This document shows, piece by piece, positions 851 through 35,244 of a DNA stretch of 44,356 nt. The stretch comes from a bacterium (lineage in GTDB: Bacteria > DRYD01): the NCBI GenBank assembly GCA_030549815.1, contig JAUQQQ010000008.1, forward strand, positions 1 to 44,356, read 5' to 3'. The notes under the pieces are model-generated. The model was not told where the DNA came from and ran no database searches. It saw only the letters and a list, made by a program, of their open reading frames with translations. A program made the translations under genes and the position numbers. Numbering within the stretch: position 1 is the first letter of the stretch; each line of letters begins with the position of its first letter.

Positions 851-2368
851 TTACCTGTATATAGTTTCCCACATATAATACATTTTTCTTTTTTTAGTAT
901 TAAAATTCATTCCACATATTATTACATTTTCTTCTAAAGTATACTTAGCATAATATTCTTTATTTTTTATTTGTTCTAAAGCTTTTTCTAAATGTTTATC
1001 TACCTTAATTTCGAAAATGTAGATTTTTTTGTTGGGAGTTTTAAGGATAATATCAATTCTTCCCAATTTGGTATGCAATTCTGCATTACAATCGAATCCT
1101 GTAGAATACAAGTAAACATACAGGAATGATTTTATACTTTTTTCATCGTTTCCATATAAATCATAGGGTATGTTCTCAAGGAGTTTATTAATTCTAAATT
1201 CTATTTCTTGTGTATCAAAATTTTCCAAAGCTTTTCGTAAGGGATTGATTTCACTGTCTTCACCTTTCCAATCTTTTAAGAACTCTCTTAACAAGTTTTC
1301 ATTAAAGCTAATTTGTACTTCTTTATTGGGAAATTTTAATTTATAAAACTTTCTACTGTATTCTTCTTTTACTTTGTGTATTGTTAAATATCCTGTTTGG
1401 AACATTAGTGCTTCTATGCTTATTTTGTCTACATCAACTCTGTTTAGGTCTTCTTCAGACAACATCAATTCCAAATTAGGAATTTCGTACTTATTATGTT
1501 GTATGAGTTTTATCAATACTTCAGGATTTCCAGTTTCATACCAATAGCTGCTATAAGATTTATTTTTTAAATAAAGCAAGACATCGAAAGGGTTGTAAAT
1601 TTTGCTACTTAGCCACCAGTAGCCGTTATACCAGTTTCGTATGCCTTCTATCTCTTGTTCCTTTATTCTTTCTCCAAATGTAAGCAATAACTCTTTTTCA
1701 GTGTATCCGCATAAATCACCATATTCTTGATTTAGGCTAATATCTTCTAATTGGTTTAACCCACTAAAAAGAGAGATTTTGGCGAACTTGCTTATTCCTG
1801 TAATAAAGACAAACTTTAAATATTGATCAATTCCTTTTATTGTTTGATAAAATCCTTTCAACACTTCTCTTATTTCCGCCGCTGTTTCTTTTTTCTCTAT
1901 ATTGTCTAGTATAGGTTTATCATATTCGTCTACTAATAATACTACTTTTTTTCTTGTTTTTTGATATATTTTATATACTAGTTCAAAAAAACTCTTATAG
2001 TAGATCTTTTCAGTTATATCTATTTCATATATTTTACTCCAAAACTTTATATCTGCTTTAATATATTCTTCTAATTCATTACTACTTCTTATTTTACCTT
2101 GATCAAAAGATATTCTTACAACAGGATAATTTTGGTTCCAATTCCAGTTGTTTTCGAGATACAACCCTGTAAATAATTCTTTTTTTCCTTCGAAAGCAGA
2201 TTTTAAAGTATCAACAAAAAGGCTTTTACCGAAGCGTCGGGGACGAGATAAAAAATAGTATTTCCCTTCATCAACTAATTTTTTAACAAAATGTGTTTTA
2301 TCAACGTAGTAGTAACCTTCAGTTCTTATTTCTTCAAAACTGCTTATACCAATTGGTAGTTTCTTCAT
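851..2368 (-). CDS. AAA-ATPase-like / PD-(D/E)XK nuclease family protein (DUF1703 type)
   Basis: A 505-residue protein of the large AAA-ATPase-like plus C-terminal nuclease family that is multicopy in many anaerobes and thermophiles. The opening residues LPIGISSFEEIRTEGYYYVD are typical of the family. A Walker-A variant RPRRFGKS lies at residues 42-49, a Walker B LLVDEYDKP is centred on D147-E148, and a sensor-like FITGISKF follows. Near the C-terminus GRIDI (D439) and FEIK (E453, K455) fit a PD-(D/E)XK nuclease core. The start ATG has a GGGAG-type ribosome site upstream. The repeat array begins directly after the stop codon, and a lone copy of the array's CRISPR-like block lies on the other side at 2460-2484. 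The cellular role of the family is not established; a mobile or defence role is inference. Confidence 0.88.
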   Translation of the reverse strand: MKKLPIGISSFEEIRTEGYYYVDKTHFVKKLVDEGKYYFLSRPRRFGKSLFVDTLKSAFEGKKELFTGLYLENNWNWNQNYPVVRISFDQGKIRSSNELEEYIKADIKFWSKIYEIDITEKIYYKSFFELVYKIYQKTRKKVVLLVDEYDKPILDNIEKKETAAEIREVLKGFYQTIKGIDQYLKFVFITGISKFAKISLFSGLNQLEDISLNQEYGDLCGYTEKELLLTFGERIKEQEIEGIRNWYNGYWWLSSKIYNPFDVLLYLKNKSYSSYWYETGNPEVLIKLIQHNKYEIPNLELMLSEEDLNRVDVDKISIEALMFQTGYLTIHKVKEEYSRKFYKLKFPNKEVQISFNENLLREFLKDWKGEDSEINPLRKALENFDTQEIEFRINKLLENIPYDLYGNDEKSIKSFLYVYLYSTGFDCNAELHTKLGRIDIILKTPNKKIYIFEIKVDKHLEKALEQIKNKEYYAKYTLEENVIICGMNFNTKKRKMYYMWETIYR

Positions 2369-2459
2369 TATTTTCTACACTCCCACAAATTTCTAAATAA
2401 TGACTTCCCTACATTTTATATTTACAAATCAAATCTATTATTACCTTTATTAAAAATTA

Positions 2460-2484
2460 CAGCCTAACTGGAAGGGATTGAAAA
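2460..2484. repeat. Isolated copy of the CRISPR-like repeat block
   Basis: CAGCCTAACTGGAAGGGATT followed by GAAAA matches the third block of the 1-840 units (for example CAGTCTGTCCATAAGGGATT then GAAAC in unit 2) but has no hairpins A or B. It sits in the 232-base gap between the divergent ATPase gene and the NuoF-like gene. Besides this block, the gap holds AT-rich sequence that should contain both promoters; no hexamer pair there was convincing. Confidence 0.55.
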
Positions 2485-2600
2485 TTTCCTGTTCTGGTAG
2501 TTTCTTTCTCTGTGTTTTCAACAAAGATTGAAAAGAAAAGGTAAGTGGTTTTTTATGTTTAATTTTTTAATATAGGAAAATAGGGTAGGGAGTGAAAATT

Positions 2601-4034
2601 ATGAAAATAAAGGTTTGTAGCTGCAGTAATTGCTCGAACGATTTCGATTTTACAGGTTTTGAAGTTGAAAAATGTGGTTGTTTAGGGCTATGCGGTTTTG
2701 GACCTATTGGTATTATCAATTCAAAAATAATTCCTATCAATGATAAAATCCTAAATAAAATAAAGAACGATCCAAACTATGTTGATCAATTACAATCACT
2801 AAATTTTGACAAGAATACTAAAATATTAATGAAAGATAATGATATAATAGATCCTGAGAATATTGAAACCTACATAAATGCAGGAGGATTTAAAGCTTTT
2901 AATAAAGCAATATCAATGAATCCTGATGAGATTATAAAAGAAATAGAACTAAGTGGTCTAAGAGGAAGAGGAGGGGCAGCATTCCCTACATACAAAAAAC
3001 TACAAATGGTAAAACAGGAAACAAATACACCTAAGTATATCGTCGCTAACCTTGAAGAGGGAGAAGTTGCATCTTTCAACAACACTATACTTGCAGAATC
3101 CAACCCTTTCTCCATAATCGAAGGAATGCTTATTGCAGCTTATACTGTCGAAGCTACTAAAGGCTATATCTTTGTTAATCATAAAGCAAAATTGGCTATA
3201 AAAAGACTACAAAATGCCATAAACCAAGCAAGAAATAAAGGATACTTTAAGAAAGTAAATCAAAATTTAGAATTCGATATCGAAATAAGAAGGTCACCCA
3301 GTGCATACATCGCAGGTGAGGAAACAGCAATGCTTGAAGTGATCGAAGGTAAAAAAGCTTACCCTCGAAATAAACCACCATTCCCCGTATCTGTTGGACT
3401 CTTTAAAAAACCAACACTCATTAACAACGTCGAGACTCTCGCTGCAATACCATACATCATACTCCATGGACATCAATACTACACATCATTCGGTAGCCAA
3501 GGATCTTATGGCACAAAAATGATATCACTTACTGGTAATGTTAATAACCCCTGTGTTAATGAAGTACCATTCAATATGACAATAAAAGAAATAATCGAAA
3601 AAATTGGAATGGGATACAGAGATAGTAATAAGGGTTTTCTTGTGGGGGGACCTTCTGGTGGAATTCTATCCCAACAATTCGAAACATTGAAATATAACTA
3701 CGATGAAGTAGCAAAAACTGGAGCTATGGTAGGATCTGGAGGAATTTACGTAATCCCTGAAAATATGAATATCGTCGAATTTGTTAAATACCTAATGAAA
3801 TTCTTTGCTGACGAAAGCTGCGGACAATGTATACCCTGCAGAGTAGGAACAAAAAAACTAACTGAAATACTTCAAAACTTTCTCAATGGCAAAGAATTAC
3901 CTAATAATTTGGATGAAATAAACGATTTTATAATGAATGTTAGTTTATGTGGTTTAGGACAAGCAGCACCTGTTCCTCTGATAACCGCAATGAAATATTT
4001 CCCCGATGAATTCAAAATTAAAATACATTCATAA
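2601..4034 (+). CDS. NuoF-like NADH:acceptor oxidoreductase flavin subunit
   Basis: A 477-residue homologue of the 51-kDa FMN/NADH subunit of complex I and of HydB-type hydrogenases. The N-terminus has six closely spaced cysteines (C6, C8, C11, C25, C27, C31), which suggests a fused mini [2Fe-2S] ferredoxin-like domain. The FMN-domain signature GLRGRGGAAFPT lies near residues 118-128, followed by YIAGEETAMLEVIEG and NNVETLA. The C-terminal 4Fe-4S site has C407, C410, C413 and C450. The usual NADEGEPG(T)FKD loop reads NLEEGEVASFNN, a marked divergence in the nucleotide-binding region. ATG 2601 is preferred to the in-frame GTG at 2592 because AGGGAG ends eight bases upstream of it. It leads recR and trmI and is far from nuoJ/nuoK, so it may serve another soluble complex. 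Confidence 0.85.
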   Translation: MKIKVCSCSNCSNDFDFTGFEVEKCGCLGLCGFGPIGIINSKIIPINDKILNKIKNDPNYVDQLQSLNFDKNTKILMKDNDIIDPENIETYINAGGFKAFNKAISMNPDEIIKEIELSGLRGRGGAAFPTYKKLQMVKQETNTPKYIVANLEEGEVASFNNTILAESNPFSIIEGMLIAAYTVEATKGYIFVNHKAKLAIKRLQNAINQARNKGYFKKVNQNLEFDIEIRRSPSAYIAGEETAMLEVIEGKKAYPRNKPPFPVSVGLFKKPTLINNVETLAAIPYIILHGHQYYTSFGSQGSYGTKMISLTGNVNNPCVNEVPFNMTIKEIIEKIGMGYRDSNKGFLVGGPSGGILSQQFETLKYNYDEVAKTGAMVGSGGIYVIPENMNIVEFVKYLMKFFADESCGQCIPCRVGTKKLTEILQNFLNGKELPNNLDEINDFIMNVSLCGLGQAAPVPLITAMKYFPDEFKIKIHS

Positions 4035-8702: not shown

Positions 8703-9812
8703 TTATTTTCCTACACAATTTTTATACAGTTTTATTAATGAGTCTAAATTTTTATTGAAATCATATTCTCTTAATGCTTTTTCTCTTGCTTTTTGTCCTA
8801 ATTCTAATCTTAATTGAGGATTAAGCAGCAGTTTCTCTATTGCTTCTGCCAATTGATTTTCATTTTGTTTTTCAACAAGGATACCATAGCTTTCAAGGAC
8901 TTCGGGCAATCCACCAACTTTCGTAGCTATGCAGGCTTTAGAACAGGCCATTGCTTCTACTAAAGAAACTCCAAAACTTTCTTCCACACTCGGCATTACA
9001 AATACATCAAGTATGTTGTATATTTTCCATAAATCTTGGTTATCAATGAATCCTGTGAATACTACTTTGTCTTCTAAATTCAAGTTTTTTACTAAATTAA
9101 GAAGTTTTGTTTTTAATGATCCTTCTCCTACTATTACCAGTTTTGCTTCTACGTTCTTTGTAATTAAAATTTTAAATGCTTTTATTAGATATTCTATTCC
9201 ATATTTGGGTTCTAAATTCCTTACTGTTCCCACAACTAAATCATTTTCTTTAATTCCATATTTTTCCATAATTTTTCTGTCTTTTTCACTTGGTCTAAAG
9301 ATTTTAGTATCAACCCCGAAAGGTATAACTTCGATTTTTTTAGAAGTGTATTTTTGTGTTTCTTTAGCCATTGTAGAAGAGGTTGAAGTTATACAATCAG
9401 CAGAAGAGAAAACCCATCTTATTAATATATTATGTAAAAAACTCTTTTTAGGGAAAGAAAAAACATCAGATCCCCAAACTGATATAAATAATTTAAAGTT
9501 CTTACTAAAAGCTTTTGAAATTTTTCCCAATAATCCATAACTACTTGCATAATGACAATGAACTATATCTACATTTTTTGTTAATTTAATAATTTTTGGT
9601 AATGAAAAAATATACTTCAACTTTTTAGGACTACCTTCTGAATCTTTCACTGCTTTTTCTTCTAATCCAAGTGTTTGGATTTCTACATTATATGAAAACT
9701 TTGTTGGGTTTGATAAACTAAAAAGTAGAACTTCTATTCCTTTATTTAATAAGCCATTAACCCATTTATAGGTATGAACAGAATTGGCGTTTGCAAGAAA
9801 TAATACTTTCAC
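8703..9812 (-). CDS. Glycosyltransferase family 4 (GT-B fold)
   Basis: A 369-residue GT4-type retaining glycosyltransferase. An N-terminal acceptor domain begins MKVLFLANANSVHTYKWVNG and contains DIVHCHYASSYGL. The C-terminal nucleotide-sugar domain has GTVRNLEPKYGIEYLIKAF, LVIVGEGSLKTKL, the VVFTGFI turn and the EX7E-like segment VEESFGVSLVEAMACSK with GGLPEVL. It probably builds cell-surface or exported polysaccharide; donor and acceptor are unknown. The start is GTG, overlapping the metG stop by one base (TAGTG). A second, more divergent GT4 gene lies at 35247-36332. Confidence 0.92.
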   Translation of the reverse strand: MKVLFLANANSVHTYKWVNGLLNKGIEVLLFSLSNPTKFSYNVEIQTLGLEEKAVKDSEGSPKKLKYIFSLPKIIKLTKNVDIVHCHYASSYGLLGKISKAFSKNFKLFISVWGSDVFSFPKKSFLHNILIRWVFSSADCITSTSSTMAKETQKYTSKKIEVIPFGVDTKIFRPSEKDRKIMEKYGIKENDLVVGTVRNLEPKYGIEYLIKAFKILITKNVEAKLVIVGEGSLKTKLLNLVKNLNLEDKVVFTGFIDNQDLWKIYNILDVFVMPSVEESFGVSLVEAMACSKACIATKVGGLPEVLESYGILVEKQNENQLAEAIEKLLLNPQLRLELGQKAREKALREYDFNKNLDSLIKLYKNCVGK

Positions 9813-11311
9813 TATGTTTTAACAATATTTTTTATTGTTGGAAATAAAGCTTCTCTATATTTTATTTCAACTTTTTCGATATTCGTATCAAAGGAAGATA
9901 GACCTATTTGTTCTAAGATTTTTTTAGATGTATAAGGAAGAGCTGGATAAAGTAATTTAGCAATATTTACTATTCCGAAAATTAATTCAAACATCAAGTT
10001 GTTAAGTTTTTCTCTATCATTTATCTCCCATGGTTTATTTTCCTCGATTTTTTTATTTAGAATGTTTGCAATTTCTACTACCATTTCTAAAGCTTTTGAA
10101 AATTCATAATTTTCAACATAATTGTAATATTTTGATGTAAATGAATCAATAATGTTTGCTAATGAACTTATGTCTGTTTGCTTATATACTTGCCCATCTA
10201 AGTTTTTTTGTATTATTGCTAATACTCTGGATACTAAATTACCAAAATTGTTAGCTAATTCGGAATTGTATATTTGTGTAAATCTTTCTAAACTTACAGG
10301 TATATCTTCTCCAAAAGAACCTTCTCTTAATAAGTAATACCTGAGAGCCATTATTAAATGAGGGGGATTATTAAAAACAAAATCTTTCAAATTAAAAATG
10401 TCTCCCCCTTTAGATTTTGATATTTTTTCTTTGCCAGCGGTTATTAGCCAACCATGAGCTATTATTTTCTTTGGTAAAGGTAGTTTTAGTGCCATCAATA
10501 TTGAAGGCCAAATAACAGCATGAAAACGAATTATATCTTTCCCCATTATATGATGCACATTTTCCCAATAATGTGCTTTAAAATTATCGGGATATCCTAT
10601 TCCTGTTATGTAATTTGTTAAAGCATCTATCCAAACGTAGATTGTATATTCTTTATCAAATGGAACTTTTATACCCCATTCTACATTTTTCCTACTAACT
10701 GAAATATCTTGTAATCCCATTTTTATAAAAGATAACACTTCATTATACCTTGATTTTGGAAAAATAACATCGGGATTATTTTCATAAAATTCTATTAATC
10801 TATCTTGAAAAGCTGATAATTTAAAGAAATAATTATCTTCTTTTAGCCACTCTAATTCTCTTTGACATTCTACATTAGGACATTTTTTATCTTCTCCAAC
10901 TTTAGATTTGGGCCAAAATGTTTCGCAATTTTTACAATACCAACCTTCATAAAAACTTTTATAAATATACCCTTCTTCAAATAATTTTTGAAAAACATAT
11001 GTTGCTGTCCTTACGTGTTCTTCATCTGTTGTTCTTATAAATTTATCATACTCTATGTGTAATTTATTCCAGATATCCTTAAAAAGGATTGCCATTTGAT
11101 CAACATATTCTTTCGTTTCTTTATTAGCTTTTCTTGCAGCTTCTTCTACTTTCACACTATTTTCATCATTACCTGTTAAGAAAAAAACATCATAGTTTTT
11201 CATTTTATAATACCTGCTTAAAAAATCTGCAATACAAGTCGTATATGCTGTTCCAATGTGAGGGTCAGAATTGGGATAATAAATCGGCGTAGTTATGTAA
11301 ATAGCCCTCAT
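9812..11311 (-). CDS. metG: Methionyl-tRNA synthetase
   Basis: Class I synthetase charging tRNA-Met. The HIGH-type motif is PHIGTAY near residue 17, and KMSKS is represented by KISKS within KEKISKSKGGDIFN. A zinc knuckle CKNC...CPNVEC lies in the connective insert after GWYCKNCETFW. The anticodon-binding helical domain follows. The protein is 499 residues and stops after that domain, so it lacks the C-terminal EMAP-II/Trbp111-like tRNA-binding domain present in longer bacterial MetG. An AAAGGGG ribosome site lies upstream of the ATG. It follows the tandem-PilZ gene by 16 bases within the operon. Confidence 0.96.
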   Translation of the reverse strand: MRAIYITTPIYYPNSDPHIGTAYTTCIADFLSRYYKMKNYDVFFLTGNDENSVKVEEAARKANKETKEYVDQMAILFKDIWNKLHIEYDKFIRTTDEEHVRTATYVFQKLFEEGYIYKSFYEGWYCKNCETFWPKSKVGEDKKCPNVECQRELEWLKEDNYFFKLSAFQDRLIEFYENNPDVIFPKSRYNEVLSFIKMGLQDISVSRKNVEWGIKVPFDKEYTIYVWIDALTNYITGIGYPDNFKAHYWENVHHIMGKDIIRFHAVIWPSILMALKLPLPKKIIAHGWLITAGKEKISKSKGGDIFNLKDFVFNNPPHLIMALRYYLLREGSFGEDIPVSLERFTQIYNSELANNFGNLVSRVLAIIQKNLDGQVYKQTDISSLANIIDSFTSKYYNYVENYEFSKALEMVVEIANILNKKIEENKPWEINDREKLNNLMFELIFGIVNIAKLLYPALPYTSKKILEQIGLSSFDTNIEKVEIKYREALFPTIKNIVKT

Positions 11312-11327
11312 TATCTATTTCCCCTTT

Positions 11328-12089
11328 CTATGTTGAATAAATGAAATTTTTTATTTTTTCTATATCTTCGTTATCAGCTTCAATAAAGTTTATGCCAATC
11401 ATTACTCCAAAAGTTTTGGTTTCTTGCCAAACTACTTTGGCCTTAATGTAATTAGTTTCTATTCCTCCAAGTATGGCTTTAATCAATATCAATTCATCTG
11501 AAGGTAGTTCAAAATCATTTATTATTCTCATCCCAGTTATGGATAGATCAACCGCATAAGTATAAAACTTTTTTACTTCGCTTTGTGTTTTTAATTCTAC
11601 TAAGAATGGTTTTTTTACCCTTACAGCCTTTCTTTCTTCAAAAGGTGCAAAGTTTAAAAGAAAACTATTGATTACTTCAAAGTTTTCTTGACTTAATTTA
11701 GCTAAATCAAGTCCAGCTGCATATAAACCAGACCCTTTAATCAACTCTTTACACCAAGCTATTCTTGCTTCTGTCTTAACAGGATCTTTAGAGGTATAAA
11801 ATTCTATATTAACTTTTTCTGCTAATTTCAAAGGTATATCTAATATTATCTTCATACCGTGTCGAGAAACATCAACTACGCTTACCCATTTCTCGATGAT
11901 TAGATCAGGATCGTAGTGTATAACAACCTTAACTAATCTTGCAGGACTTAAAATTTTTCTCTCTTCTTTTCTTCTTTCAACAAATTTCAAATCTATTAAT
12001 GAAGGTTTATCATTTTCTTCTTGTTCTACCAATTCTTCTTGAGTTTCTTGATTTTCATTTCCGTTTTCTTTTTCTTTTTTTTCTTCCAT
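11328..12089 (-). CDS. Tandem PilZ-domain c-di-GMP receptor
   Basis: A 253-residue cytoplasmic protein with an acidic, low-complexity N-terminus and two consecutive PilZ domains. Domain 1 has the c-di-GMP-binding RxxxR motif as RKEER (residues 40-44) and D/NxSxxG as DVSRHG (73-78). Domain 2 has RKAVR (153-157) and DLSITG (181-186). Both motifs are complete in both copies, so both may bind ligand. I place the start at the ATG preceded by AGGAGGG and five bases; the longer in-frame start at 12134 would overlap the upstream gene. An HD-GYP phosphodiesterase at 17350 and pilus-type genes at 40462-42552 suggest a motility or surface circuit. Confidence 0.9.
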   Translation of the reverse strand: MEEKKEKENGNENQETQEELVEQEENDKPSLIDLKFVERRKEERKILSPARLVKVVIHYDPDLIIEKWVSVVDVSRHGMKIILDIPLKLAEKVNIEFYTSKDPVKTEARIAWCKELIKGSGLYAAGLDLAKLSQENFEVINSFLLNFAPFEERKAVRVKKPFLVELKTQSEVKKFYTYAVDLSITGMRIINDFELPSDELILIKAILGGIETNYIKAKVVWQETKTFGVMIGINFIEADNEDIEKIKNFIYST

Positions 12090-12099
12090 CTTTACCCTC

Positions 12100-13014
12100 C
12101 TATTGAGATTTAGATAGAATTTCAATGTACTCATTATAATCTCTTATAAAGAAATCGACAGACATTCTTGACAAATCCAATAGTTTTGATTTTCTGTATT
12201 TTACTGAACCGCTTGAGATGACAGCAATTGTCCTGCTTATATTTTGAACATTGAAGAATACTATTTCTCCGTTTTTATTTAATAATAGATAATTTATTTG
12301 TAATTCTACTGTTGGAACTAAACTATTACCATCTTTTTCAAAATAATAATATTTTTTGAGTATCGGTATTATCGCTCCATCTATATTTTTTTCTTGCAAG
12401 TATTGAATAATATATTTAATATCAAAATCATTTAATTTAAAATCTTTAGCCAAGACTATAGTTTTAAAATTCTTTTCTGAAAATGCTGATTTTATAGTAT
12501 TTTCTAAATTATCTATGTCTTCTGTATAAGTTTTATAATTATTATCGTCAAGCTTTTTGACCTGGTTTACTGGATTTGATATTACTATTGTTTTGATGGA
12601 TTCCAGTTTTTTGTATATTATCGAATTTAAAAGAATACCATTTGAATTGTATGGATTTTGTGCTATTTGAATATTTTCAGAATTTTCTTTATTCTGAGTT
12701 GTTTGTGTTTGAGTTTTCTGTGTTTGAGTTAGTTGAGTTGTTTGTTTTGTTTGTATACTTGAGGATTGATTAGAATTAGTAATAACAGGTATTTTGTGAA
12801 ATAAAATATATTTTCTTGTTAAATTTACCTCATAATCGATATTAAATAAATTACTTATATCGTATATATCAACAAATACGGAAGTCCCTTTAATTATTGG
12901 ATTGGTATTTACTTCTTTACTTATTCCCTTTGCTCTTAACTTCCATTGAGTATTTGAATATACAAAAATAAGGACAGTTGATAATAACAATATAAGTAAA
13001 ATTATTCTTTTCAT
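12100..13014 (-). CDS. Secreted or membrane-anchored protein of unknown function
   Basis: A 304-residue protein with an N-terminal hydrophobic signal segment (residues 4-20) and no lipobox cysteine. The next ~45 residues have the feel of a copper-amine-oxidase N-terminal-like module (NTNPIIKGTSVFVDIYDIS then YILFHK); that is weak. A Gln/Thr/Asn-rich linker of about 45 residues follows (repeats of TQT and TTQ), then a mixed alpha/beta C-terminal domain of ~180 residues that I do not recognise. The linker suggests the C-terminal domain sits outside the membrane. The ribosome site AGGAGG is well placed. Its position between a Cys-rich protein and the PilZ protein hints at an envelope role, without more. 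Confidence 0.72.
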   Translation of the reverse strand: MKRIILLILLLSTVLIFVYSNTQWKLRAKGISKEVNTNPIIKGTSVFVDIYDISNLFNIDYEVNLTRKYILFHKIPVITNSNQSSSIQTKQTTQLTQTQKTQTQTTQNKENSENIQIAQNPYNSNGILLNSIIYKKLESIKTIVISNPVNQVKKLDDNNYKTYTEDIDNLENTIKSAFSEKNFKTIVLAKDFKLNDFDIKYIIQYLQEKNIDGAIIPILKKYYYFEKDGNSLVPTVELQINYLLLNKNGEIVFFNVQNISRTIAVISSGSVKYRKSKLLDLSRMSVDFFIRDYNEYIEILSKSQ

Positions 13015-27077: not shown

Positions 27078-29060
27078 ATGAGTAAGGAACAAAAATTTTA
27101 CAAAGTGCTTCAAGAAGTTTTTATTGGTGCCAATATTGAAGGTAAAGGTGGATTTCTTAATTTGATGAGTATAAAATCAAATTATTATAGCAAGATAGAG
27201 AGATTACTTAAAGCCGATATAGAAAAAGCATTAGAAAAGTATCCCAGTTTTAGGGATGAACTTTTTGACAAGCTTTATTCCTTTTTCAGTAGATATTTTA
27301 CGCAGAGTGGTTCAATCTATTTCAATTCTACTCCATTTCACAGCAATGTCTATGAGAAAGTTTATACCGATGAAAAGGATGTTATTCTATTTTGGAAAAC
27401 TCATATGCTTTACTATGTCAAAACCGACAGGATTTTCAGGAGTTTTCCAGTTGAGTTTGATGGATTAAAATTTTACTTTGATGCTTCGAAAACAGAAATC
27501 AAAAGAGCTAATGAAAAGAGATCACTTATTTTTGAGTTAAATGAAGTTCGTGAAGATGGCACAATTGTTTTTGCTGTTCAATATTCCGAAAAAGGGACAA
27601 AGACAAAAACCGACGAGATATTAAAGGAATTAAAGAAGAAAGGCATTGGGATTAGTGAGGAACAATTGGAGCGTGCTTTTAGAATTTTTGAAAAACAAAG
27701 TGAAGTTGATTTTTTCATAAATAAAAACGCAAAAGCATTCTTACAGGAACAATTTAAGCTATGGATTTATCAGTATTTTTGGGAAGGTGCAAAGGAGTGG
27801 GATGCCGATAGGGTTAATCAACTGCAAATCCTTAAAGATATTGCATTTAAGATAATTGACTTTATTTCTCAGTTTGAGGATGAGCTTGTAAAAATTTGGA
27901 ACAAGCCCAAGTTTGTTAAAAATTCAAACTATGTAATTACTTTGGATAGAATTGCAAATATTAATATAATTGAGAAAATTTTGAAACACAAAAATGTTGA
28001 TGAACAGGTCAAAGAATGGAAGGAACTTGGAATTGTAGATGAAAATTTTAAAACGAGTGATGTTATTGAAACTAATTTAACAGGCAAATATTTATCAAAG
28101 AAATACAAGCATTTACCTATTGATACAAAGTATTTTAAAGATTTAGAACTTGAGATTTTAAGTTTATTTGATGATTTAGATAATGCATTGGATGGCTGGT
28201 TGATAAAAAGTGAGAATTATCAAGCATTAAATACAATTTTACCAAAATTTAAGGAGAAAGTGCAGACAATCTATATTGACCCTCCATTTAATAAAGAACA
28301 GGATGCCGATTATTTTTATTCTGTAAAATACAAAGATTCTACCTGGATTACAATGCTGGAAAATAGATTACAATTAGCAAAGGAATTTATTAAAGACACA
28401 GGAAGCATTTTTGTTAGATGCGATTACAACGGGAATATGTATGTTAGGCTTTTGATGAATCAGATTTTTGGAGAAGAAAATTTTAGAAATGAGATAACTA
28501 TAGCAAAATCTAAAGAATTCTTTAAAACTATGACACATATTAAAAAATTTTCAGAAGAAACAGAAAGTTTGTTTTTATTTTCCAAAACAGAGAATATGCT
28601 TTTCAATCTAATATATAAGGAAAAAGATAAACCTTCTAAATACGAACCTTTCTTGCCAGTGGATGATAAATTATATAGCGATTTCAGGATAATAAATGGG
28701 GAAAAGGTATTTTCTCCTAAAGGTAGAAAGTGGGGAGTAAAACAAGAAGATATTGAAAAATTGATAAATGAAAAAAGGTTAGTTTATGAAAATGGTAAAT
28801 GGTGGCTTATTACATATCAAGAACCGCTTAAAGATGTTTGGATAGATTATCAAGGATATTCAAGAAATTGGGGCTTTAAAACCGAAAACTCCGAAATTCT
28901 TTTAAAACGTGTTATAGAATCTACATCTAATGAAGGTGATTTAGTTATGGATTTCTTCCTTGGTTCTGGCACTACTACTGCAGTAGCACATAAACTTGGT
29001 AGAAAATGGATAGGTATTGAGATGGGAGAGCATTGCTGGCGGATTTTTCAAATACTTTGA
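27078..29060 (+). CDS. Type III-like DNA methyltransferase (Mod), main fragment
   Basis: Beta-class amino-methylase expected to modify adenine in the recognition site. An N-terminal region of ~400 residues of unknown role precedes catalytic motif IV DPPFN (401-405). The putative target-recognition region follows, then SAM motif I DFFLGSGT (625-632) and AHKLGRKWIGIEMGEH. Reading ends soon after GEH with ten out-of-family residues, while the expected C-terminal continuation lies in the +1 frame (next entry). Upstream of the ATG is GAGGAATT. The 127-base gap 26951-27077 separates it from the Fur/anti-sigma run and holds only a weak AGTATT/AATACT inverted repeat. Because both SAM and catalytic motifs survive, partial activity cannot be excluded, but a broken gene is likelier. 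Confidence 0.82.
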   Translation: MSKEQKFYKVLQEVFIGANIEGKGGFLNLMSIKSNYYSKIERLLKADIEKALEKYPSFRDELFDKLYSFFSRYFTQSGSIYFNSTPFHSNVYEKVYTDEKDVILFWKTHMLYYVKTDRIFRSFPVEFDGLKFYFDASKTEIKRANEKRSLIFELNEVREDGTIVFAVQYSEKGTKTKTDEILKELKKKGIGISEEQLERAFRIFEKQSEVDFFINKNAKAFLQEQFKLWIYQYFWEGAKEWDADRVNQLQILKDIAFKIIDFISQFEDELVKIWNKPKFVKNSNYVITLDRIANINIIEKILKHKNVDEQVKEWKELGIVDENFKTSDVIETNLTGKYLSKKYKHLPIDTKYFKDLELEILSLFDDLDNALDGWLIKSENYQALNTILPKFKEKVQTIYIDPPFNKEQDADYFYSVKYKDSTWITMLENRLQLAKEFIKDTGSIFVRCDYNGNMYVRLLMNQIFGEENFRNEITIAKSKEFFKTMTHIKKFSEETESLFLFSKTENMLFNLIYKEKDKPSKYEPFLPVDDKLYSDFRIINGEKVFSPKGRKWGVKQEDIEKLINEKRLVYENGKWWLITYQEPLKDVWIDYQGYSRNWGFKTENSEILLKRVIESTSNEGDLVMDFFLGSGTTTAVAHKLGRKWIGIEMGEHCWRIFQIL

Positions 29061-29391
29061 ACTTGAACAATATGATGAAGCATTGGCTAAATGTAAATAT
29101 GAAGATGGGGATTTATTCACTGTGCCTACCAAAAGTCCTTATCAAGAATACGTATTTTTGAAAGACGAAAAAATGCTTAAAGCATTAGAGATTGATTATG
29201 AGAACAACAAAGTAAAAGTAGATTTATCAAAACTTTATGAAAACATAGATATTGCTGAAACACTGTCAAACCTTCTTGGCAAGTGGATTAAAAAAATAAG
29301 CAAGGATGAAGTAGAGTTTGAGGATGGAACAAAAATCAATACCAAAGATTTGGATTATAAAATTATTAAACCCCTAATTTGGTGGGATTAA
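29017..29391 (+). pseudogene. Frame-shifted C-terminal fragment of the Mod methyltransferase
   Basis: Codons from about 29035 encode AGGFFKYFELEQYDEALAKC, the segment that in related type III Mod proteins continues the same polypeptide after a stretch that follows GEH. Here it is in the +1 frame, and the intermediate ~25-35 residues seem missing. The simplest reading is an out-of-frame deletion near 29033-29036. The fragment continues for about 115 residues to a stop at 29391 and overlaps the AAA gene start region. No good ribosome site precedes it. Sequence-assembly error is an alternative. Confidence 0.72.
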
Positions 29392-29393
29392 TT

Positions 29394-30851
29394 GTGGATA
29401 AAATTTTAGAAGGAATATTGTTATCAACAAAAGTAACGAAGAGTGTTATTGAAACTCGTATTAGACATTCAATTACAGGGAAAAAATATCCTAAGAGAAT
29501 ATTTTATATACTATTGAAAAAATACGCTGATGATTTTTTAACGAATGGATATGAACCAAGAATGATTGGACTTGCTGGGTTGCGTGGAACTGGTAAAACT
29601 ACTCTGATGTGGCAAATAGCAGAATATATTTTTAAAAATAAAGAAATTCCTGTTTATTTCTTTAATGTAGATATTATTAAAACTGCTTCTTATTCTTTAT
29701 TTGAAGTTTTACAAGGATTTCAAAAAATAATTTTAAAGAAGGAATTCAGGAAGTTACAAGAACCAATTGTTTTCTTGTTTGATGAAGTCCATGAGGATGC
29801 AGAATGGGCTAAAACATTAAAGATACTTTATGATGAAGCAAGAACTGCTTTTATTGTATGCACTGGATCATCTGCTTTACTCATACAACAAACTGCTGAT
29901 TTGGCTCGTAGGATGAAAATTGAAAGAGTTTATCCCTTCAAATTTATTGAATTTATCACAGCTAAAAGTTTTTATGAAAGAGAAGAAAAAATTTTTCCAG
30001 AGAGGAACTTATCGAATGAAATTAAAAATGCTTTATTTTTCAGTCCTACTCTAAATGATGCTTATGAAGGAATACAAAAAATTAGTAATAAGATAGAAAA
30101 TTATTTTAATAAGGTTAATAAAGTGTTTTCAGGTTACAAAGGAAATTTGATATCTGAATATATTAAATATCATAATATTCCTTCATTTTTAGAATATAGG
30201 GAAAAATCTGCAATATTTGATTCCATATTAGAACTATTAAAAAGAGTAATTAATGAAGATGTTCCAAAAATTAAAGAAAATGCAGGGGAGAAAAGTGTAG
30301 GAGAAAATGAAAAAATTCTAAAACTTCTTCTTCAGTTAGCTATTTCAGATGAAATTAATCTGGATACTTTATCTCAAAAGACTGGAATTAAAAAAGACGA
30401 AATAGAATTTTTCTTGGACATACTTAATGGATCTGAGGTTGTCAATATTTTCAATCCTTACGGTGGTAAGGAAGCCAGGATATGGAAAAATAAAAAGATA
30501 TTTTTTATGTCTCCTTCCATAAGATTATCTTTATTATCAAGCATTTATGGTGATAGAATAACAAAAGAAATGGAAGGTAAATTATACGAAGATATTGTCG
30601 CTATGTATATAAGAAGAATATTAGACAATAATGTTATGATTTTAACATCAAAAAATATTAAAAAACCAGATTTTGTAATAGAAACAATGGAAAAGCCACT
30701 ATTACTTGAGGTTGGTATTAGTAAAACAACAAGTGATCAATTTTCTAATATCGATTGTAGGTATGGAATTTTAGTAAGCAATGGTATTAAAGAAATAGAA
30801 AAAAATAAGAAATACTTAAAATTACCATTAAAATGGTTCTTATTGATGTGA
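29394..30851 (+). CDS. AAA ATPase (AAA_14-like) with nuclease-like C-terminus, between mod and res
   Basis: A ~485-residue P-loop ATPase: Walker A GLRGTGKT (residues 62-69), Walker B FLFDEVHE (D130, E131) and sensor CTGSSALLIQQTADLARRMK, the pattern of AAA_14/DUF4143-type ATPases. A winged-helix-like region (LDTLSQKTGIKKDEIEFFLD) follows, then a C-terminal domain with PDFVIE and LLLEVGIS, which resembles a PD-(D/E)XK fold with the usual ExK lysine replaced by glycine. GTG 29394 is chosen because GGTGGG precedes it; TTG 29379 is possible. It overlaps res by 19 bases, so it belongs to the R-M operon. An ATPase at this position is not part of standard type III systems. Confidence 0.82.
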   Translation: MDKILEGILLSTKVTKSVIETRIRHSITGKKYPKRIFYILLKKYADDFLTNGYEPRMIGLAGLRGTGKTTLMWQIAEYIFKNKEIPVYFFNVDIIKTASYSLFEVLQGFQKIILKKEFRKLQEPIVFLFDEVHEDAEWAKTLKILYDEARTAFIVCTGSSALLIQQTADLARRMKIERVYPFKFIEFITAKSFYEREEKIFPERNLSNEIKNALFFSPTLNDAYEGIQKISNKIENYFNKVNKVFSGYKGNLISEYIKYHNIPSFLEYREKSAIFDSILELLKRVINEDVPKIKENAGEKSVGENEKILKLLLQLAISDEINLDTLSQKTGIKKDEIEFFLDILNGSEVVNIFNPYGGKEARIWKNKKIFFMSPSIRLSLLSSIYGDRITKEMEGKLYEDIVAMYIRRILDNNVMILTSKNIKKPDFVIETMEKPLLLEVGISKTTSDQFSNIDCRYGILVSNGIKEIEKNKKYLKLPLKWFLLM

Positions 30852-32995
30852 AAACTAGTATGAGTAGGTTGTATCTTCAAAATATCTTAAATGATATTTC
30901 TTTTGAGGATTTGCCGGCAAAGTGGCAAAGATTTGATTTAGGACGATTTTCAAAAGATAAAAATCTTTTTGATTTTCAGCAAAATGCTTTGAAAAATGCT
31001 ATAAAAGCATTGTATCTATATTTCAAAGACAAAAATGCTGACAAGAAAGCTTTATTTGACCATTACAAACTCAATGGACTTGAAGAAAACTTTGATTATG
31101 ACTTAAAGAAAAAACAAGACAGTAAAACAGTTAAGTATCTTCTGGAATATCCTGATGATTACCCTGTTATCAATAACCTGTCTGCGCAGGCAGGCAAAAT
31201 TTCATTTACTCATTTTATCAATCGAATGAGTTTTTGGATGGCTACAGGTGCGGGCAAGACACTAATTATCGTTAAACTAATTGAAATTTTGGGAAAACTC
31301 ATTGCTGAGAAGGAATTACCAACAGGTGATATTCTATTTTTGACTCATCGAGATGACCTTTTAGATCAATTCAAAAATCATGTTGAGGAATTTAATAGTT
31401 TCAACTTTGATGCAAGGATAAATCTTAGAAGTTTGAAAGATTATGAGAGAGTGAAGCGTGAAAATGCTTTGCCATTTCTCAAAAATGAGATAACTGTTTT
31501 TTATTATCGCTCTGATTTGATTTCTGACGAACATAAAGAAAAGATTGTTGATTTTAGGAATTATGATAATGGTGGCAAATGGTATATCCTTTTAGACGAA
31601 GCTCACAAAGGAGATAGAGAAGATAGTAAACGACAGATTTTATACTCTATACTTTCAAGGAACGGGTTTCTGTTTAACTTCTCTGCAACTTTTACTGATC
31701 CAAGGGATTTTGCAACTTGCGCTTTTAACTTCAATCTTTCAAGATTTGTTATAGAAGGATATGGCAAACATATTTATGTATCAAAATCAAATATATCTGC
31801 TTTTAAGGATAAGGATGATTTTTCACCAATTGAAAAACAGAAAATTGTTTTGAAGACCCTTTTACTCTTAGCTTATATAAATAAGCATTTTGAAGAAATT
31901 AGAAAGGTTGATAATTCACTTTACCATCGCCCACTACTTTTAACTTTGGTTAATTCTGTAGATATAGAACAATCCGACTTGGAATTATTTTTTAGGGAAT
32001 TGGAAAAAGTAGCTAAAAACGAAATTAGACAAGATTTATTTGAAGAAGCAAAAAAGGAACTTTTTATGGAATTTAACGAGTATCCAACGTTTGAGTTTGA
32101 GGAAAAAAAACTTGAAGTAGATGCTCATTTGATTTCAAGATTGGAATACAAAGATATTTTGAAATATGTATTTAATACACAAGCTTCGGGGAAGGTCGAA
32201 GTTTTAAGGATCCCTGGGAATAAGCAAGAGTTGATTTTTAAGCTAAGCACGAGTGAAAAACCGTTTGCATTGATAAAAATTGGTGATATATCTAATTGGC
32301 TGAAAGATAAGCTTGAAGGTTACGAGATAAGCGAGAGTTTTGATAATGAAAGCTATTTTAGACAAATTAATCTCGACGATTCTGAGATAAACATTTTGAT
32401 GGGATCTCGATCTTTCTATGAAGGCTGGGATTCTAATAGACCAAACGTGATTTTATTTATAAATATAGGGGTTGGAAGTGATGCCAAAAAATTTGTGCTG
32501 CAATCCATTGGTAGAGGGGTAAGAATAGAGCCACTAAAAAACCAAAGAAAAAGACTACAGAATTTGTTTAATGCTAAAGTTGTAAAAGAGGAAATTTTTG
32601 AGAAAGTTAAAGATCATATTTTGTTTCTCGAGAGCTTGTTTGTTTTTGGAACTAATGCCGAAAACTTGAGGGAAATAATTAAAACATTGAAAGAAGAAAA
32701 ACAAGATAAAAATTTGGGTGATGAATTTATATTAAATCCTGAGGTGCAAAAACATCTTCTTCTGGTGCCTATCTATAAAACTGCTGAGAAAATTTTGGTC
32801 GAAGATAGAGAACCACAAAAATACATCTTAAGCAAAGACGATTTTAATATAACAAAAAATTTTTATGAATACATAGGCGATAAAATCGCTGTAGCTAAAT
32901 ATAATTGTGAAGTAAAGGTTTTGAAGAAAGTAAAAGAAAGTTTTGCAGAAAAAGAACGGTATTATGATTTTAGTGAAAAAAAAATCTCTTTTTGA
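30833..32995 (+). CDS. Type III-like restriction enzyme Res, helicase part (split by frameshift)
   Basis: Superfamily 2 helicase part of a Res subunit: FDFQQNALKNAI (Q-like motif), Walker A ATGAGKT (137-143), LFLTHRDDLLDQF, DEAH box (255-258), NFSATFTDPRDF and motif VI QSIGRGVRIEP (from 557). A 720-residue reading ends at TGA 32993-32995, right after an A9 tract at 32976-32984. The nuclease part continues in the +1 frame; removing one A would join the reading as SEKKSLFEPELI. The start is ATG 30833, or ATG 30860 (MSRLYLQN); neither has a ribosome site, so coupling to the overlapping AAA gene is likely. Confidence 0.86.
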   Translation: MVLIDVKTSMSRLYLQNILNDISFEDLPAKWQRFDLGRFSKDKNLFDFQQNALKNAIKALYLYFKDKNADKKALFDHYKLNGLEENFDYDLKKKQDSKTVKYLLEYPDDYPVINNLSAQAGKISFTHFINRMSFWMATGAGKTLIIVKLIEILGKLIAEKELPTGDILFLTHRDDLLDQFKNHVEEFNSFNFDARINLRSLKDYERVKRENALPFLKNEITVFYYRSDLISDEHKEKIVDFRNYDNGGKWYILLDEAHKGDREDSKRQILYSILSRNGFLFNFSATFTDPRDFATCAFNFNLSRFVIEGYGKHIYVSKSNISAFKDKDDFSPIEKQKIVLKTLLLLAYINKHFEEIRKVDNSLYHRPLLLTLVNSVDIEQSDLELFFRELEKVAKNEIRQDLFEEAKKELFMEFNEYPTFEFEEKKLEVDAHLISRLEYKDILKYVFNTQASGKVEVLRIPGNKQELIFKLSTSEKPFALIKIGDISNWLKDKLEGYEISESFDNESYFRQINLDDSEINILMGSRSFYEGWDSNRPNVILFINIGVGSDAKKFVLQSIGRGVRIEPLKNQRKRLQNLFNAKVVKEEIFEKVKDHILFLESLFVFGTNAENLREIIKTLKEEKQDKNLGDEFILNPEVQKHLLLVPIYKTAEKILVEDREPQKYILSKDDFNITKNFYEYIGDKIAVAKYNCEVKVLKKVKESFAEKERYYDFSEKKISF

Positions 32996-33851
32996 GCCAG
33001 AGTTAATTCTTGGCCGCATTTTTGACTATCTTGGAGTTAAAAGTATGGAGTTTGAAAAATTTAAAGAATTGAAAGATGAAATTGTGCATTTTAGAAACAT
33101 TAGATTTCGATTTAATGATGAAGAAAAATATGAGGAAATCAAAAGAAAGATAGAGGAAATTAGACGCTACCCTGAGAGACATAAAGAGTTAGATGAGAAA
33201 TATGGGAAAATACCAAGAGAAGAATTTGAAAGACAGATGTATTTGTTTACAAATGCAGGAAATTTTGAAATGAAGAACCAGAGAATAAAAATCAAGTATA
33301 TTGCTAATCATTATTATCTACCAGTTATTCTTTCGGAGCAAGAGAAAATTGATTATATTAATCACATAATCAATATCTCTAGTGAAGTGAAATTTATTGA
33401 AGAATTAGAAGAATATCTTAAATATCCCAATAATGTGTTTAAGCACTTTGAATGGTGGATGTTTTCAAAGATTGACCAAACAATGGATGAGGTATTTATT
33501 CCTTATTACAACCCAAAGAAAAATAAAATTGCCAAGTTCAAACCAGATTTTATTTTTTGGATGCAAAAGGATAAACGATACTTGATTTTATTTGTTGATC
33601 CAAAAGGGACAGAGTATGCAGAGGGATATAGAAAGATCGATGGATATTCAAGAATATTTGAAGTTGAGCAAAATGGGAAAAAGCAAAGTAGGGATTTTTT
33701 ATACAACGGATTTGTTATAAATGTAAAGCTATTGCTAAAACCAAAGCGAGGAATTGCAAGTGTTTTAGAAAATTACAAGCAATACTGGTTTGACAACTTT
33801 ACTGATTTTTCTAATAAGGTAAAACAATTCTTTACAGAGAAAATTGAATGA
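32943..33851 (+). pseudogene. Res nuclease part in the +1 frame after the A9 tract
   Basis: This reading supplies the missing C-terminus of Res. From SLFEPELILGRIFDYLG onward it looks like the natural continuation of the helicase. A PD-(D/E)XK endonuclease core is seen as KPDFIFWM (D202 in this reading) and LFVDPKGTEY (D219, K221). A short internal ATG exists at 32943 but no convincing ribosome site. The protein might be made as a fusion through transcriptional slippage on A9, as a separate subunit, or not at all. It ends 67 bases before the DCD-AAA+ gene. Confidence 0.7.
32976..32984 (+). repeat. A9 homopolymer at the res frameshift
   Basis: Nine adenines inside GTG-A9-TCTCTT separate the two res reading frames. 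Eight (or eleven) adenines would make helicase and nuclease one protein of about 1,010 residues. Such tracts are prone to replication and transcription slippage, and also to sequencing error. Confidence 0.85.
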
Positions 33852-33918
33852 TGGTGAATAAGAAAAATTATGTATTAACGGTAATGGTTTGATAAATTTG
33901 AAAAAGTAAGGAGGTAAT

Positions 33919-35244
33919 ATGATTAACACAAAGGTAAATTTACCTTGTTTCTTTATGATTTGTACCAATGAAACAGAAAAAGAATGTTTGCAAAAGGAGC
34001 TGTTTGGCGATAGAAAATGGCGACTACCACACCTAAAATCCATAAAAAGGGGGGATATCGGTTTTCTGTTGAACATTACTAAAGACGAACTTCTTGGAAT
34101 TTTTGTAGCAGAAAGTGAAGCACAGATTAGTATTGACCCAAATGCTTGGAATGGAAAATTTCCTTCTCAGGTTAAAGTAAAACTAATTGGAGAATTACAG
34201 AGAATTCCTAATGCTTCGAAGGAATTGGAGAGAATCGTTCGGCTTAAAGAAGTAAAAAAGAAAATAAAAAATGGGACAATAAAAATCACTTATATGGTTC
34301 CTGCAGAAAACACTTATGGTCCAGATATTACTAATAGGGTATTATCTTTGTTTAAATTGTCAGAGGAATTGGAAAAATATTTTAAAGCAGCTTCACAAGA
34401 AGTAGAGATTGGTGTATTTTCTGAGTATAGGTTGGATGATGTCGCTGGTTTAGACGAAGTGAAGGATTTTATATATCAGCGAATTATAGCACCGTTTGAA
34501 GATGAGGAAATTGCTTATAGATTGGGGCTACGCATAGGTGGGGGTGTTTTACTTTTTGGGCCTCCAGGTACAGGAAAAACACTTATAGCAATGGCAATTG
34601 CCAATCACATTCAGGCAAAGTTCATAGAGATAAGTCCTTCTATTATCATAGGTTATCCAGGTGAAGCTGAGAAGAAAATAGAGAATATCTTTTCGTCGTT
34701 AGAAAAAGAGCCACGTGCTGTAGTTTTTCTTGATGAAGCAGAATGGATTTTATGCAGGCGTGAAGAGCAAACGTCGTCAGTAATGCAAAGAGTAACACCT
34801 GTTCTTTTAGTTCAGTTAGGTAGGATATTCAAGCAAAAAAAGAAGCCCATAGTTATCATTGCTGCAACTAATAGACCGGAAATGATAGATCCTGCTTTTT
34901 TACGGCCAGGAAGATTTGATAAAATTTTTTACGTTCCCTTGCCAGATAAAAAGGCAAGAGAGAAAATTATAGAAATACACTTACAAAATAGAGAAAATGA
35001 GTTAAAAAAGGATGATATAGCAGAAATTGCAGACAAACTGGAAGGTTATTCAGGTGCAGATATAGCTCATATTGTTGAAGAGGCAGCATATAACGCTTTT
35101 AAGAGAAGGAAAACTCAAAATGCTAAAATAACAAAAGAAGATATAATAAAAGTTATTGAACAAACTACACGATCAATTACGGCGCAAGAAGTAGAAAGAA
35201 TAGAAAAGTGGGCAACGGGGTATAGAATACCAAAAATAAAATAA
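33919..35244 (+). CDS. DCD-like domain fused to a AAA+ ATPase
   Basis: A 441-residue protein with two parts. Residues ~8-100 match the layout of the DCD (Development and Cell Death) domain: CFFMICTNETEKECLQKELF, RLPHLKSIKRGDIGFLLNI, LLGIFVAESEAQISIDP and WNGKFPSQVKVKL. These parallel the plant hallmarks xQLFGLP, LFLYN, GIFEA and FPAQV. Residues ~180-430 are one Cdc48/Vps4-like AAA domain: VAGLDEVKDFI, Walker A GPPGTGKT (214-221), Walker B FLDEAE (D272, E273), NRPEMIDPAFLRPGRFDK with the arginine finger region, and a C-terminal helical lid. Start ATG follows AAGGAGGT closely, the best ribosome site in the island. It ends the mod-AAA-res run, so a role in the same defence island is inferred. 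Confidence 0.82.
   Translation: MINTKVNLPCFFMICTNETEKECLQKELFGDRKWRLPHLKSIKRGDIGFLLNITKDELLGIFVAESEAQISIDPNAWNGKFPSQVKVKLIGELQRIPNASKELERIVRLKEVKKKIKNGTIKITYMVPAENTYGPDITNRVLSLFKLSEELEKYFKAASQEVEIGVFSEYRLDDVAGLDEVKDFIYQRIIAPFEDEEIAYRLGLRIGGGVLLFGPPGTGKTLIAMAIANHIQAKFIEISPSIIIGYPGEAEKKIENIFSSLEKEPRAVVFLDEAEWILCRREEQTSSVMQRVTPVLLVQLGRIFKQKKKPIVIIAATNRPEMIDPAFLRPGRFDKIFYVPLPDKKAREKIIEIHLQNRENELKKDDIAEIADKLEGYSGADIAHIVEEAAYNAFKRRKTQNAKITKEDIIKVIEQTTRSITAQEVERIEKWATGYRIPKIK

Follow-up and report, generated by a model that had tools for sequence, protein, structure and literature searches.

The stretch of bacterial DNA discussed here, called the window (44,356 nucleotides), encodes on its forward strand a 441-residue protein (33919..35244) in which an N-terminal DCD domain is joined to a classical AAA ATPase domain. 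Judged from its sequence, this DCD-AAA protein is a functional two-part machine, with a chance fusion disfavored, and its role is probably that of an accessory in antiviral systems. Such proteins were found in eight species, those of the window and seven more, scattered over unrelated phyla and mostly 50 to 70% identical.

Architecture and predicted fold

The extent of the gene follows from the list of open reading frames, the Pfam matches, and the alignment of orthologues; it has an ATG start, 5' of which lies a Shine-Dalgarno-like AAGGAGGT at about 33908..33915 on the same strand. A preliminary description of the window had read a DCD layout in the N-terminus, and the Pfam search agrees: the DCD core, residues 12 to 98 (33952..34212), matches PF10539 (E = 1.2e-17), its 64.3 bits exceeding the cut-off of 27.8, and all four of the motifs named there, ECLQKELF, GFLLNI, GIFVAE, and FPSQVKVKL, are present. 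The DCD motifs as published are FGLP, LFL, PAQV, and PLxE (PMC1182354). In the protein of the window, FG-D-R, FLL, and PSQV fall at the expected positions, with PAQV in several orthologues, and PLxE is indistinct. The view of DCD as plant-specific, under which the domain was first described, has been given up since 2020, prokaryotic DCD proteins having been described (PMC7641849).

The remainder of the protein had been called a complete Cdc48/Vps4-like AAA+ domain, and it proves to be one. PF00004 matches residues 210 to 341 (34546..34941) over its full profile (116.8 bits, E = 1.2e-33), the AAA_lid_3 lid occupies residues 366 to 409 (35014..35145; 44.7 bits), Vps4_C gives a weak match under its cut-off, and in the PDB the AAA part comes closest in sequence to archaeal VCP-like domains and Cdc48 D2 domains. 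The marks of a classical AAA protein of the Cdc48/Vps4 type are all found: the lid, Walker A GPPGTGKT at residues 214 to 221 (34558..34581), Walker B FLDEAEW (34726..34746), an SRH with the arginine fingers R329 and R332 in RPGR (34903..34914), and a pore loop 1 (GYPGEAE, 34651..34671) whose aromatic residue is Y246 and which pairs in the alignment with its counterpart in archaeal VCP D2, kwvGEsE. The Walker motifs (D272 to W276 of Walker B included), both arginines, the pore loop, and the DCD core are invariant across the eight DCD-AAA proteins, and the linker is variable. Because the catalytic, arginine-finger, and pore-loop residues are invariant together with the DCD core, the protein appears to be a competent motor with a reader. 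The source genome (1.59 Mb) has no DCD gene other than that of the window, and its one other match to the AAA part at E < 1e-30 is a 599-residue frame that we take to be FtsH.

An AlphaFold2 model of the DCD (residues 1 to 165), built from an 11-sequence alignment, has a mean pLDDT of 90.7 and was compared with the PDB by Foldseek and VIA-align. The best solved match is PH1033 (Z = 13.1, 2.6 Å over 120 residues), and MJECL36 (Z = 12.1), YTHDF2 with m6A and YTHDC2 with m6A DNA (Z = 11.2), and the EVE-HNH restriction enzyme VcaM4I (Z = 10.2) also match. By sequence, the DCD profile reaches weakly the same two archaeal EVE-family proteins as the fold search, 2p5d (E = 0.027) and 1wmm (E = 0.51), and a profile-profile comparison of DCDs with three archaeal EVE-like proteins by hhalign gives a probability of 93%. 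Furthermore, a DCD from the archaeal sample (L056) scores above the cut-offs of the DCD and EVE Pfam models alike. From these fold and profile matches and from L056, we conclude that the DCD is, as modeled, a PUA-like domain of the EVE/YTH type, in line with the kinship proposed in the preliminary description and with the inference of Bell et al. 2020 (PMC7641849). An unrelated predicted fold, which the preliminary description had named in advance as a refutation, was not the outcome.

Within the domain, W77 (34147..34149) is invariant in all 11 DCDs and all 8 DCD-AAA proteins, and F29-G30 of the LFG motif (34003..34008), which corresponds to FGLP in plant DCDs, is invariant in the 8 DCD-AAA proteins. 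YTH domains have an aromatic cage, and by analogy W77 and F29 are candidate pocket residues, W77 as part of a putative cage and F29-G30 at a possible base-pocket position. The modeled fold suggests that the DCD would sense a modified base; our literature search found no report of a DCD ligand.

Distribution and genomic neighborhoods

Some 1,700 genome searches altogether, overlaps included, yielded few DCD-AAA genes, and so the gene is rare. A genome-wide pattern scan recovered four full-length relatives at 61 to 70% identity: L024 and L027 from unclassified bacterial MAGs, L025 from a Bacteroidales MAG, and L026 from a 5-kb contig of a Lokiarchaeota MAG, which is possibly misbinned. The query of that scan included artificial, script-written rows that steered the choice of pattern and are not evidence, and the homologues were re-aligned alone; plant-like rows in two alignments (A1 and A3) are not evidence either. 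Three more came from searches of whole genomes: L049 and L050, whose phylum (35 species) is that of the L024 genome, and L073, whose phylum is that of the Planctomycetota genome. No DCD gene was detected in 143 other sampled bacterial genomes, a set including the few members of the order of the window genome, and no DCD-AAA gene in the remaining close relatives searched. DCD patterns gave nothing in viral contigs, as did a DCD search of plasmids; two viral matches to a mixed DCD/AAA pattern were AAA-only, and the phage matches to DCD-AAA span the AAA part only.

Further candidates were not counted as DCD-AAA relatives. L029 (Ignavibacteria) had a match of 32 residues in a genome with no above-threshold DCD; L057, L058, and L068 are EVE-like; and L051 and L052 are DCD-methyltransferase fusions. 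In L052, a MerR-type HTH, a DCD, and an N6_N4 methyltransferase are fused in one gene (8908-10329) inside an apparent mur/fts cell-wall cluster.

In the window, mod, an AAA_14/DUF4143 ATPase gene, and res lie in this order on the forward strand, with the DCD-AAA gene 67 bp on, and the island is flanked by dnaK/cob/fur genes on one side and by a convergent glycosyltransferase/ddl/tlyA block on the other. The restriction-modification (RM) island reported earlier is thus present in content, with the mod and res genes of a type III system both there, but each of the two is split as assembled. The N-terminal 660 residues of the type III Mod, an N6/N4 DNA methyltransferase (27078..29060; PF01555), match the PADLOC model MTase_III with 859 bits over positions 4 to 672 of 816, and a C-terminal remnant in a second, overlapping frame (29017..29391) matches positions 701 to 816 of the same profile, so that the frame is lost near 29017-29060, together with about 28 positions of the profile. 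The ATPase gene follows (29379..30851; PF13173, PF13635, and PADLOC PDC-S01). The helicase part of the type III-like Res (30833..32995; PF04851, and REase_III with 84.5 bits) is 50 to 57% identical to plasmid Res proteins, and its C-terminal part lies in another frame (32943..33851) after a run of nine A at 32976-32984, with 39 to 43% identity to the C-terminus of the Rhodothermus and Athalassotoga plasmid Res. In those plasmid relatives Res is a single protein, the Athalassotoga copy being broken by IS256. With both mod and res split, the sequence at hand does not give an intact neighboring RM system; an assembly error, decay, and phase variation are each possible causes. In the related operon of the Rhodothermus plasmid (L069), a nucleotidyltransferase gene and a small hypothetical one stand between mod and res, a slot that seems to take differing accessory genes.

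A survey of linkage to defense genes had been set in advance as a test, and its outcome supports the link: three of the eight DCD-AAA genes lie inside defense loci, namely the type III-like RM locus of the window, a type I RM locus (L049), and a type III-B CRISPR locus (L027). The order in L049 is hsdM, an MNT nucleotidyltransferase gene, a HEPN gene, hsdS, DCD-AAA, and hsdR; the DCD-AAA stop overlaps the start of hsdR by 4 bp, and the 1.7-Mb genome has no HSDR_N match besides this hsdR. The genes set between hsdM and hsdS (11543-12267) form a HEPN-MNT toxin-antitoxin pair. In L027, a 4-repeat CRISPR array (9702-9929) is followed by DCD-AAA (9995-11287) and then, from 11638, by a type III-B operon with Cmr1, a CARF protein, Cas10, more Cmr-like genes, and Csx1. 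L026 has a DUF4365/Aga-REase-like gene two genes downstream of DCD-AAA. In L050, DCD-AAA is near an unannotated 706-residue protein and small genes without assigned function, which together are possibly a novel defense operon; the 706-residue protein, encoded two genes upstream (1778-3898), has no Pfam match and a possible P-loop, YAPPGFQKSE. There is no defense gene in the available sequence around DCD-AAA in L024 and L073, and the context in L025 is limited by the end of a short contig.

Stand-alone DCD genes were found directly after hsdR at distances of 46 bp (L028) and 67 bp (L074). A small GIY-YIG-like gene with no Pfam match (2294-2731) comes after the hsdR-DCD pair of L028, and a DUF4357 gene is on the opposite strand near that of L074. 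In each of the four RM-linked loci (the window, L049, L028, and L074) the DCD gene and the R gene are immediate neighbors, and for this reason the R subunit is taken here to be the probable partner; the loci are few and were selected non-randomly, which makes the tie suggestive and not a statistical proof.

Possible roles in defense

We tentatively favor the view that the DCD-AAA protein is a modification-gated remodeler that works with the adjoining R subunit as a type IV-like, positive arm. The DCD would dock a single-ring AAA unfoldase on nucleic acid in which a base is modified, methylation in DNA being the most plausible case, and a hexamer would collect on the modified DNA. The aromatic pore would then take in R, either by itself or within a nucleoprotein complex, and ATP hydrolysis would remodel R so that DNA ignored by ordinary type I or type III restriction becomes a target. 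Such an arm, added to other systems, would be analogous to the reader-AAA+-nuclease logic of McrBC. The analysis shows the domains, the modeled fold, the conserved catalytic and pore residues, and the placement in defense loci, while we infer the ligand, the hexamer, the partner, and the sign of the effect alike, and the lean toward a positive, type IV-like role comes from the precedents of McrBC and of DCD/EVE-nuclease fusions. Several observations count against this view: the CRISPR-linked copy sits beside a system without an R subunit, L024 and L073 have no visible defense gene, the contexts of L025 and L050 are short or unclear, and the mod and res of the window are frameshifted. A broader reading, possible if doubtful, is that DCD-AAA is a portable modification-gated unfoldase module for type I RM, type III RM, and type III CRISPR systems, whose nucleases it would control; that would make it a type of defense accessory not described so far, with a Cdc48-type ring driven by a YTH/EVE-type reader.

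Between distant loci, the DCD and the motor are conserved to about the same degree (66% against 60% for the window and L049 proteins), which weighs against the favored view: a constant ligand or partner fits this better than an arms race over the modifications of invaders. This conservation would also suit a constant self ligand, and thus a role in self-protection, which we consider somewhat unlikely in itself but not far behind the favored role in probability: the DCD would read a host methyl mark, for example m6A from HsdM or Mod, and the ring would unfold R or strip it from self DNA. The precedent is ClpXP, an AAA+ unfoldase that removes the translocating HsdR of EcoKI in restriction alleviation (PMC4231737). 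Polypeptides are the substrates of classical AAA rings whose pore loop is aromatic, the methyltransferases linked to these genes as writers are of the adenine/N4 type, DCDs elsewhere are fused to N6_N4 methyltransferases, and m6A is read by YTH domains, which have the same fold as the DCD. However, self-protection leaves the CRISPR-linked and free-standing copies unexplained, no protease partner is seen, and published DCD-nuclease fusions speak for a positive role.

The copies beside three types of defense system, and those without visible defense genes, would both be accommodated if the protein were a stand-alone defense or stress effector, which binds modified RNA (tRNA, rRNA, or mRNA) or phage nucleic acid and remodels the bound complexes alone, with the defense genes as mere neighbors. 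Related YTH and EVE domains often read RNA, but the tight packing of the L049 operon and the repeated abutment with R genes suggest a closer tie, and we judge such an effector unlikely. Quite improbable is a housekeeping or passenger protein, such as a chaperone, that is in the islands by chance: although four of the eight loci have no defense link and grpE-dnaK-dnaJ lies in the flanks of the window, the gene is very rare and patchy, it has 60 to 70% identity between the Lokiarchaeota bin and several bacterial phyla, and copies are inside RM and CRISPR operons.

If the protein is indeed a modification-gated remodeler, its combination of a YTH/EVE-type reader with a Cdc48-type ring would newly connect proteostasis machines with readers of the epitranscriptome type. 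The sensing of base modification would be coupled to an ATP-driven remodeler, allowing a wider restriction of modified invaders or the shielding of self DNA. What DCD, known from plant cell-death proteins, does biochemically could then be studied in a prokaryote.

Comparison with known systems

Prokaryotic DCDs are known beside type I RM genes and in fusions with Rossmann methyltransferases, PD-(D/E)XK, and McrB-like GTPase domains, according to the parts of the paper by Bell, Wolf, and Koonin (2020) at hand (PMC7641849). The proteins described here share with those the Pfam domain, the EVE-like fold, the rare and patchy occurrence, and the link to type I RM, and DCD-N6_N4 methyltransferase fusions and stand-alone DCD genes after hsdR were recovered here too. 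They differ from that account, as far as its available text goes, in the fusion to a classical Cdc48/Vps4-type AAA domain and in the placement with type III-like RM and type III-B CRISPR systems. Our literature search, partial in its coverage, found no DCD-Cdc48-type fusion, and the literature at hand names no link of DCD to type III RM or CRISPR.

The PADLOC models for IetA of the IetAS system match the AAA part of DCD-AAA, in a part of the model without a DCD; the IetA equivalog score is 100 bits, under the cut-off of 510, and an assignment to IetA was dropped; there is no IetS-type subtilase or peptidase among the annotated genes of the island (27078-35244). Cdc48-related AAA proteins also occur in a restriction superoperon, as the p97/CDC48 homologues (SpoVK family) of type III-A CoCoNuT extensions (PMC11090510). 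Unlike DCD-AAA, those homologues carry AAA domains in tandem, one of the copies being dead, and they are not reported to have a DCD reader (PMC11090510).

Closer in logic is McrBC, with its EVE, YTH, or DCD fusions to McrB: an AAA+ motor has an N-terminal reader of modified bases and works for a separate nuclease. Assignment to McrB was itself dropped, the sensor-1 region being ATNRPE and not the NxxD GTPase signature, with no McrC among the annotated neighbors in the window; DCD-AAA also differs from McrB in its classical AAA domain, with an SRH and arginine fingers and an aromatic pore loop. In the sequence of the AAA domain, the likeness is to archaeal VCP-like proteins and Cdc48 D2 and to Vps4/CdvC, but DCD-AAA has a single AAA ring, and its DCD takes the place of the N domain of Cdc48 or the MIT domain.
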